Assembly (NCBI GenBank): GCA_944391225.1 | Contig: CALXSS010000001.1 | Coordinates: forward strand, 1-64,000 | Length of the DNA stretch: 64,000 bases | Source of the DNA: an uncultured Clostridia bacterium | Lineage (GTDB): Bacteria; Bacillota; Clostridia; UBA1381 | Direction: 5' to 3' | Shown: positions 3,674 through 44,375 of the stretch, one piece after another | Layout of the letters: each line of letters opens with the position of its first letter | Position numbering within the stretch: position 1 is the stretch's first letter | The notes under the pieces: generated by a model | The model's input: the letters and a program-made list of their open reading frames with translations, nothing else | What the model was told of the DNA's origin: nothing | The model's database searches: none | Made by a program: the position numbers and the translations under genes

Positions 3674-3717
3674 AAAAAAAGCGCTCCTTTAAAACCATAA
3701 GGAGCGCTGTTTTTTAT
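3674..3717. terminator. Bidirectional intrinsic terminator
   Basis: AGCGCTCCTT and AAGGAGCGCT arms are flanked by A7 on one side and T6 on the other, so the hairpin could stop transcription in either direction. It separates the MITE from the pseudogene. Confidence 0.75.
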
Positions 3718-3725
3718 TGATTTTT

Positions 3726-3884
3726 GGTTCATATTAAAATGTTGGGGTTGTAGGGGCGGATAGTATCCGCCAGTCATTAGCGCGGCGGGGATGCGGGCAG
3801 ATGATATCTGCCCCTACAAAAAATCGGAAAGCTATCAATTGCCTGTATAACAGATATGCAAACCCCAATATTTATTAATGAATC
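3726..3884 (-). mobile_element. MITE family A, copy 1 (159 bp)
   Basis: The element has imperfect ~22-bp terminal inverted repeats starting GGTTCAT and is flanked by a perfect 8-bp direct repeat TGATTTTT (3718-3725 and 3885-3892). Internally it carries GC-rich inverted repeats (GGCGGATAGTATCCGCC and GGGCAGATGATATCTGCCC). It matches the copies at 40930 and 44165 and lies in inverse orientation to them. It has no coding capacity. The remaining bases up to 4023 hold nothing recognisable. Confidence 0.9.
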
Positions 3885-4023
3885 TGATTTTTTATGGATA
3901 CTATTAATGCGCTACAAAAATTGTATCACAACATTATACGGATTTTATACAGCTCGTTTCTCTCTGCAAAACAAGCTGTATTTGCCTGTTTGGAATATCA
4001 AAAAACCTTATGCTAATCAACGT

Positions 4024-10138: not shown

Positions 10139-10181
10139 CGCTCCCCCTTTGCACGCCGCAATTATTAGTTCTGCAAGTCCT

Positions 10182-10541
10182 GAATAAGGGTGAAATGCGC
10201 CGCTTATCGCGTTCCCTCTGTAACGAGCGGGAGAAGCAAGCAGATTGCCCTTATGAAAGACGACGCTGTACTCATTGTACTGCGAGTCTTGAATAAGGGC
10301 GAGATGCGCCGCTTATCGCGTTCCCTCTGTAACGAGCGGGAGAAGCAAGCAGATTGCACTCTTAATAGACAACTCTATACTCATTGTACTGCGGGTCTTG
10401 AATAAGGGTGAGATGCGCCGCTTATCGCGTTCCCTCTGTAACGAGCGGGAGAAGCAAGCAGATTGCCCTTATGAAAGACGACGCTGTACTCATTGTACTG
10501 CGAGTCTTGAATAAGGGCGAGATGCGCCGCTTATCGCGTTC
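10182..10541. repeat. 109-bp tandem repeat array (about 3.3 units)
   Basis: Units begin GAATAAGGGYGARATGCGCC at 10182, 10291, 10400 and 10509, exactly 109 bases apart. The last unit is cut where it meets the speD stop. Units 1 and 3 are near identical; the second unit has a variant segment (GCACTCTTAATAGACAACTC). The period is not a multiple of three, so it is not a protein repeat, although short accidental frames cross it. It lies wholly within the speD-speA gap, so it would form part of the polyamine operon transcript. Confidence 0.95.
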
Positions 10542-25836: not shown

Positions 25837-25878
25837 TACTTTTTTGAAAAAAAGCTCATTTTTTTCTTACAGCAGGCA

Positions 25879-26020
25879 ATAAAAAAACTGTTGCAAAACT
25901 CAACGAGTTTCGCAACAGCCTCGAATCGAATTTTATACTGAAATTGCTGCCATTCACAAAAATGACTTGCTATCTTTGTTTTATTCACTTTATACAGTCT
26001 GTGGATTTGACTGCAGTCCT
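25879..26020 (-). repeat. Family-B repeat copy; its hairpin also terminates the hydrogenase gene
   Basis: GGCTGTTGCGAAACTCGTT at one end pairs with AACGAGTTTTGCAACAG, then T7 follows on the minus strand, giving a strong terminator at 25879-25923. The rest, up to TTTATACAGTCTGTGGATTTGACTGCAGTCC-like sequence near 26020, aligns with the interior and right end of the element at 37733-38008. It looks like a diverged copy of the same element. Confidence 0.7.
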
Positions 26021-37692: not shown

Positions 37693-37732
37693 ATATCCTG
37701 CTTTCAATTATCATGTTTTCAATTCAAAAAAA

Positions 37733-38008
37733 GAGGCTGTTGCAAAACTCAACGAATTTGCAACAGCCTTGGGGGCTTTAGAAAAATAGTACAGAACGGA
37801 CAAAACGAAGGGGCGCAGCCCCCTTGCCCGAAGGCGTACGGTGGTACGTCGAGCGGTGAGTTTCGTTCGTAACATAAAGCGATTATAATTCTGAAATTTT
37901 CATTTATGAAAATTTCCACCTTAAACTTGATAGCAGTTATCCTTAAAAAATGGCTTAACTGTTTTGTTCTTTTCGCTTTATGTGGTCTGTGCATTTTGCT
38001 ACAGCCCC
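37733..38008 (+). mobile_element. Family-B element, fullest copy (276 bp)
   Basis: It has terminal inverted repeats GAGGCTGTTGCAAAA and TTTTGCTACAGCCCC, and the left end forms the recurring hairpin with the ACTCAACGA loop. The interior holds smaller inverted repeats (GGGGCGCAGCCCC) and no coding frame of note. Diverged or partial relatives lie at 25879, 28979, 34502 and 44331. No target duplication is visible, so it is probably older than family A. Confidence 0.65.
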
Positions 38009-40874: not shown

Positions 40875-40929
40875 ATATCCCTTTCATTCAGCCCGTTCCA
40901 TATATGGAACGGATATTGCCTCATAAATG

Positions 40930-41090
40930 GGTTCATTAATAAATATTGGGGGGTTGCCTATCTGCTATACAGGCAATCGATAGCTTTCCGATTTATTGCA
41001 GGGGCAGATATTATCTGCCCGCATCCCCACCGCGCTAATGACTGGCGGACACTGTCCGCCCCCTACGACCCAAACATTTTAATATGGACC
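40930..41090 (+). mobile_element. MITE family A, copy 2 (161 bp), inside the ribosomal operon
   Basis: GGTTCATTAATAAATATTGG at the left and TTTTAATATGGACC at the right are inverted ends, flanked by a perfect 8-bp direct repeat CATAAATG (40922-40929 and 41091-41098). It is homologous to copies at 3726 and 44165. It sits between khpA and rimM, which are normally adjacent. Confidence 0.92.
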
Positions 41091-41103
41091 CATAAATGCA
41101 AAA

Positions 41104-41136
41104 CGGCTGTTTCACAAATACATGAAACAGCCTTTT
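41104..41136 (+). terminator. Hairpin with T-run between khpA and the MITE
   Basis: GGCTGTTTCA and TGAAACAGCC arms with TTTTT on the plus strand. On the minus strand, the sense of the operon, it is followed by a weak GTTTTGC run, so it may attenuate rather than end khpA transcripts. Confidence 0.55.
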
Positions 41137-44146: not shown

Positions 44147-44164
44147 GACCGCCTCCAAAAAACA

Positions 44165-44322
44165 GGTTCATTAATAAATATCGGGGGTCGCATATCTGTT
44201 ATACAGGCAATTGGTAGCTTTCCGTTTTCTTGTAGGAGCAGATATTATCTGCCCGCGTCCCCGCCGCGCTAACGACCGGCGGATACTATCCGCCCCTACG
44301 CCCCAACATTTTAATATGAACC
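44165..44322 (+). mobile_element. MITE family A, copy 3 (158 bp)
   Basis: It begins GGTTCATTAATAAATATCGG and ends CATTTTAATATGAACC, and is flanked by a perfect 8-bp repeat AAAAAACA (44157-44164 and 44323-44330). It lies 18 bases upstream of the TOPRIM gene start and between that gene and the amidase. Confidence 0.92.
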
Positions 44323-44330
44323 AAAAAACA

Positions 44331-44375
44331 GGAGGCTGGCGCAAAACTCACCGAGTTCGCAGCAGCCTCGCTTTT
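44331..44375 (-). terminator. Family-B hairpin, probable terminator of the amidase gene
   Basis: GAGGCTGCTGCGAA and TTTTGCGCCAGCCTC arms with the CTCGGTGAG loop lie immediately after the amidase stop; TGTTTTTT follows on the minus strand within a few bases. Confidence 0.75.

Follow-up and report, generated by a model that had tools for sequence, protein, structure and literature searches.

An ISL3-type MITE with 8-nt repeats has been described from Microcystis (PMC11448079), and in Anabaena variabilis dimers of the GTAG-15 REP lie inside long palindromes (PMC3733652). The element reported here, from a gut-type Clostridia genome, shares features with both. It is a MITE of 159 bp, with no coding capacity, dispersed at approximately 40 sites, and we regard it with considerable confidence as a non-autonomous ISL3-type element: one with ISL3-type ends and a REP-dimer core, half of whose copies lie at terminators. 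Three of its copies lie in the window (the whole stretch of 64,000 nucleotides that was analysed); these, together with their duplications, core palindromes and adjoining hairpins, are listed in Table 1.

Table 1. Positions of the MITE copies in the window and of the features within and beside them.
Feature	Position	Strand	Remarks
Terminator hairpin (intrinsic) AGCGCTCCTT...AAGGAGCGCT then GTTTTTTATTG	3680..3708	+	T-tract is a few bases upstream of copy 1
Copy 1 target duplication TGATTTTT, left	3718..3725	.	8 bp, perfect
MITE copy 1	3726..3884	-	159 bp; 98% identity to family consensus
GTAG-tagged palindrome (REP-like), copy 1 core, first of head-to-head pair	3750..3772	+	
GTAG-tagged palindrome (REP-like), copy 1 core, second of head-to-head pair	3795..3817	-	
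Copy 1 target duplication TGATTTTT, right	3885..3892	.	8 bp, perfect
Copy 2 target duplication CATAAATG, left	40922..40929	.	8 bp, perfect
MITE copy 2	40930..41090	+	161 bp; KH-domain gene on one side, rimM on the other
Copy 2 target duplication CATAAATG, right	41091..41098	.	8 bp, perfect
Terminator-like hairpin GGCTGTTTCA...TGAAACAGCC	41105..41132	-	beside copy 2; matching hairpin in genus relatives without the MITE
Copy 3 target duplication AAAAAACA, left	44157..44164	.	8 bp, perfect
MITE copy 3	44165..44322	+	158 bp
GTAG-tagged palindrome, copy 3 core	44232..44254	+	
GTAG-tagged palindrome, copy 3 core, head-to-head partner	44277..44299	-	
Copy 3 target duplication AAAAAACA, right	44323..44330	.	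8 bp, perfect
Terminator hairpin GAGGCTG...CAGCCTC	44332..44369	-	T-tract is the copy 3 target; similar hairpin in relatives without the MITE

Dispersed copies, target duplications and empty sites

The first-pass annotation had described three copies of approximately 160 bp, each with its own 8-bp duplication and with imperfect terminal inverted repeats of 22 bp. Both statements were borne out: all three duplications are perfect, and the two ends – GGTTCATTAATAAATATTGGGG and GGTTCATATTAAAATGTTGGGG – have 17 of 22 bases in common. A pattern for the MITE ends is expected zero times in shuffled windows. The predicted single-strand fold is strong (DNA z = -4.1). When copy 2 was used as a BLAST query on the whole assembly (144 contigs, 2.63 Mb, 81% complete), 45 matches resulted, approximately 40 of them near full length; separate searches with each end added truncated copies. 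Rfam recognised no RNA family in the window, the window ORFs scanned matched no transposase family, and searches found neither the MITE in plasmids nor its left end in viral contigs.

Left and right flanks were compared at 47 oriented MITE boundaries (a few of which are composites in a tandem array), with duplication lengths from 4 to 12 tried. At a length of 8 the flanks are 70% identical, as against 37% when flanks are randomly re-paired (z = 10.3); z is 5.1 at a length of 7 and 4.3 at 9, and length 8 alone stands out. Among 42 non-redundant elements the duplication matches at 8/8 positions in 11 and at >=6/8 (at least six) in 26. Duplications are AT-rich (82% AT vs 57% in flanks).

The locus that holds copies 2 and 3 is conserved in the genus, with genes for rimM, a KH-domain protein, SRP54, a Toprim protein and an amidase. 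At the site of copy 2 many genus relatives have 60-107 nt of intergenic sequence with a hairpin of the GGCTGTTTCA type, or a similar one, and no MITE; the corresponding stretch in the window is 273 nt, or 104 nt once the 161-bp MITE and a single 8-bp duplication are subtracted. The site of copy 3 likewise lacks the MITE in relatives, where it is mostly 41-151 nt and in several cases carries a GGCTG...CAGCC hairpin; the window spacer is 56 nt after subtraction of the element and one duplication. In a few relatives the spacers at these loci are longer and unrelated. Because the sites of copies 2 and 3 are empty in genus relatives, their insertions are recent relative to the genus. Neither of the two findings that, according to the first-pass annotation, would have spoken against it was obtained: copies elsewhere in the genome have the 8-bp duplication, and at the two loci compared relatives lack the element. 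Together with the number of copies, these results support the earlier proposal of insertion in trans by a transposase, here taken to be of the DDE type, that is encoded outside the window.

Tandem repeats were also recorded. Arrays with a unit of approximately 112 bp, made up of the right part of the MITE and approximately 20 bp of flank, occur at G000:C48:16960-17392 (L095) and G000:C76:2-316 (L074) and possibly arose by recombination between repeated core hairpins. Separately, window positions 10171-10541 hold 3.4 copies of a 109-bp unit, with genes for an Orn/Lys/Arg decarboxylase and an S-adenosylmethionine decarboxylase either side.

Insertion at terminators

A terminator-like hairpin accompanies each of the three window copies, which are located at its T-tract or only a few bases away. 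For the genome as a whole, an insertion among the 42 elements was scored as terminator-associated if a hairpin of -8 kcal/mol or better ended at the duplication, on the side that reads as T; by this strict rule copies 1 and 2 are excluded, their hairpins being a few bases too far away. Control sites were intergenic, with genes masked by a simple ORF rule. Of the 42 insertions, 21 had such a hairpin. The number expected was 8.2 with controls of matching base content and 8.4 with controls of matching A/T run length, and 21 was never reached, in 5,000 or in 10,000 resamples. Hairpins on the wrong side numbered six. The orientation of the MITE relative to the A/T tract showed no significant bias (25 vs 15, p = 0.15).

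As read from the sequence, a hairpin whose T-tract receives an insertion still has a T-tract afterward, the 8 bases being duplicated. In this genome the persisting copies are concentrated at sites of this kind, in the T-tracts of intrinsic terminators. Because the duplication returns a T-tract to the upstream hairpin, the burden on the host is expected to be small, which may be why terminators are favored.

Whether this pattern arose by choice of target or by purifying loss of insertions made elsewhere is, in our judgment, an even call, and the latter is compatible with an ISL3-type MITE. The ISL3 IS ends of other Clostridia are AT-rich but show no clear preference (a terminator at 3 of 21, vs 6% of matched sites), so that the preference seen here may reflect retention rather than targeting; a general ISL3 preference for terminators is accordingly not supported. 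Most MITE copies in this genome are, moreover, old. Against purifying loss stands the enrichment over intergenic controls matched for A/T runs, though targeting and retention both fit that result.

A second dispersed repeat, GAGGCTGTTGCAAAACTCAACGAGTTTTGCAACAGCCTC, is also terminator-like. It occurs in the window at 25878-25910, 37727-37759 and 44326-44358, frequently precedes GGCTTTAGAAAAA at other places in the genome, and has several MITEs inserted beside it.

ISL3-type ends and the probable mobilizing transposase

Duplications of approximately 8 bp are produced by the IS256, IS1595, IS66 and ISL3 families alike. The first-pass annotation had named IS1595, ISL3 or IS256 as possible mobilizers; ISL3, the sole one of the three compared, fits both end sequences. 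A search of relatives for ISL3 transposases yielded a same-genus example (G011), frameshifted and without a recognizable duplication, at a locus that appears identical to one in a goat-caecum Clostridia MAG (L188). The ends of this IS are GGCTCTATAATAAATATTGGGGTGA and GGCTCTTTGTCAAGAGTTGGGGTGA, the first of which agrees with the MITE left end at 20/22 positions. A complete IS of 1613 bp (L156) does slightly better, at 21/22, and its second end resembles the MITE right end (19/26). The right end is matched more weakly than the left, with 16/22 and 19/26 against the other, different ISL3 IS end. Within both loci (7.7-8 kb each) no other place matches the MITE left end as well as the IS end does; the next best falls 4-5 bases short.

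The open frame of the complete IS is an ISL3 transposase by both Pfam and NCBIfam. A scan of GTDB contigs for the exact pattern GGYTCWWWAATAAATATTGGGG returned 55 stretches, with record titles of Clostridia or other Firmicutes; coding sequence for an ISL3 transposase lies inside the end in 23 of the 55, even though many contigs break approximately 100 bp inside the IS. Proteins encoded beside such ends were confirmed as ISL3 (PF01610, E 3e-67; PF14690; PF13542; NF033550, E 2e-93). In the genome that carries the MITE – an assembly 81% complete, in 144 contigs – no ISL3 transposase domain (PF01610) was found, as would be expected if the IS is missing from the assembly or has been lost. Single ends elsewhere in this genome might have belonged to an autonomous IS, but the ones examined proved to be either truncated MITEs or chance matches.

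On these sequence matches we infer that the MITE was moved by an ISL3-family transposase acting in trans. This DDE enzyme would bind the two unequal ends of approximately 22 bp and insert the element into AT-rich 8-bp targets, which would thereby become duplicated. That the mobilizer belongs instead to another family that duplicates 8 bp (IS256, IS1595 or IS66), the ends resembling those of ISL3 by chance, seems improbable: the shared duplication length and the lack of an ISL3 gene in the assembly would allow it, but ISL3 ends, that of the same-genus IS among them, agree with the MITE at 20-21 of 22 bases, and exact-pattern ends in other Clostridia adjoin ISL3 transposase genes.

A further observation is a near-perfect palindrome of 61 bp at L180 (JAJQEM010000017.1), which consists of two ISL3-type ends back to back and is possibly a minimal ISL3 MITE.

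A REP-like core

At consensus positions ~66-143 the MITE contains the palindrome GTAGGGGCAGATATTATCTGCCC and, inverted, GTAGGGGCGGATAGTATCCGCC, with the GTAG tags outermost. In copies 1 and 3 the sequence GTAGGGGCRGATNNNATCYGCCC occurs in opposite orientations, 45 bp start to start. A head-to-head GTAG REP dimer is built in just this way, from inverted pairs in which each GTAG tag precedes a palindrome. Such core pairs (42-52 bp start to start), and single units as well, are present in other genera of the family without the MITE ends; at some loci the stem sequence differs yet the palindrome is kept (e.g. GGGCGACCCTCGCGGTCGCCC). Because core pairs occur across the family without these ends, the MITE appears to be composite, with ISL3 ends around a REP dimer that would have been captured rather than being ancestral. 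At four loci in other genera (L203, L204, L211 and L219) pairs of GTAG hairpins lie between stretches resembling TAAATTTTGGTTTA; these may represent a further MITE family that shares the core.

An 8-bp duplication is not expected of RAYT-type movement. It is therefore most unlikely that a RAYT (an HUH tyrosine transposase) spread the repeat as a REP/BIME family, the outer sequences being merely conserved flanks: the core does have the head-to-head GTAG REP anatomy reported in the dimer description (PMC3733652), partial units stand in tandem at C48 and C76, and RAYT-like genes occur in several members of the family and order, but the 8-bp duplications flank the outer ends exactly, and the assembly (81% complete) yielded no RAYT, its only Y1 match being an IS200 fragment. 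As mobilizer of the whole element RAYT is contradicted by the duplication; the core alone may have undergone RAYT-type spread.

Returning to the composite element, a fuller scheme can be offered tentatively, and we hold it to be less likely than not. ISL3 ends would carry the REP dimer around the genome, and the element would be directed to the T-tracts of terminators, where the duplication would restore the terminator, such that a DDE transposon would spread a RAYT-type repeat into near-neutral sites.

Age, spread and implications

Copies of the MITE have a mean identity of 92.5% to the consensus and a median pairwise divergence of 12%, the closest pair differing by 2%. The earlier description of the family as active is not supported, given this median divergence, the small share of perfect duplications (11/42) and the absence of an autonomous partner from the assembly. 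Among 70 genomes of the family, full-length copies are present in this genome only, and the MITE family spread in this lineage after its split from the sampled relatives. A genus mate (G002) carries degenerate pieces, one shorter copy among them, so the family probably predates this species. That shorter copy (L289; G002:C251:11500-12000), of approximately 80 bp, also adjoins a terminator hairpin.

An orphan MITE is in this way tied to a transposase family. The merging of two systems of mobile repeats in a single element, as proposed here, can be put to the test, and the preference for T-tracts, together with their duplication, suggests a route to dozens of copies at little cost.

Comparison with known systems

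Among systems with the same kind of ends, the MITE resembles the ISL3 MITE of Microcystis (PMC11448079) in being a non-coding miniature with imperfect ends that match an ISL3 IS, in its 8-nt direct repeats and in a mobilizer inferred to act in trans; the end sequence (GGCTCTTCG) and the host phylum differ, and the description of the Microcystis element, as far as it extends, includes neither a REP-dimer core nor an association with terminators. With the ISL3 ISs of Clostridia (L156 and L188) it shares 20-21 of the 22 bases of the left end, the other end being weaker; unlike the MITE, which has no gene, these are 1.4-1.6 kb in length and encode a transposase.

The interior invites a different set of comparisons. 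Two inverted GTAG-tagged palindromes separated by a short spacer, as in the MITE core, are the arrangement given in the pertinent sections on head-to-head GTAG REP dimers (PMC3733652) and on REPINs (PMC3116915). Unlike the dimers and REPINs portrayed there, that of the MITE sits within DDE-type ends and an 8-bp duplication, in an assembly with no RAYT detected. The GTAG-15 repeats of A. variabilis provide a parallel for REP dimers nested in a longer inverted-repeat element, although the corresponding part of their description (PMC3733652) links the outer palindrome neither to an IS family nor to a target duplication. No description of the present family was found in the literature searched. 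Elements of this kind are known, and the MITE is a new family among them; its composite interior and its association with terminators are unusual.
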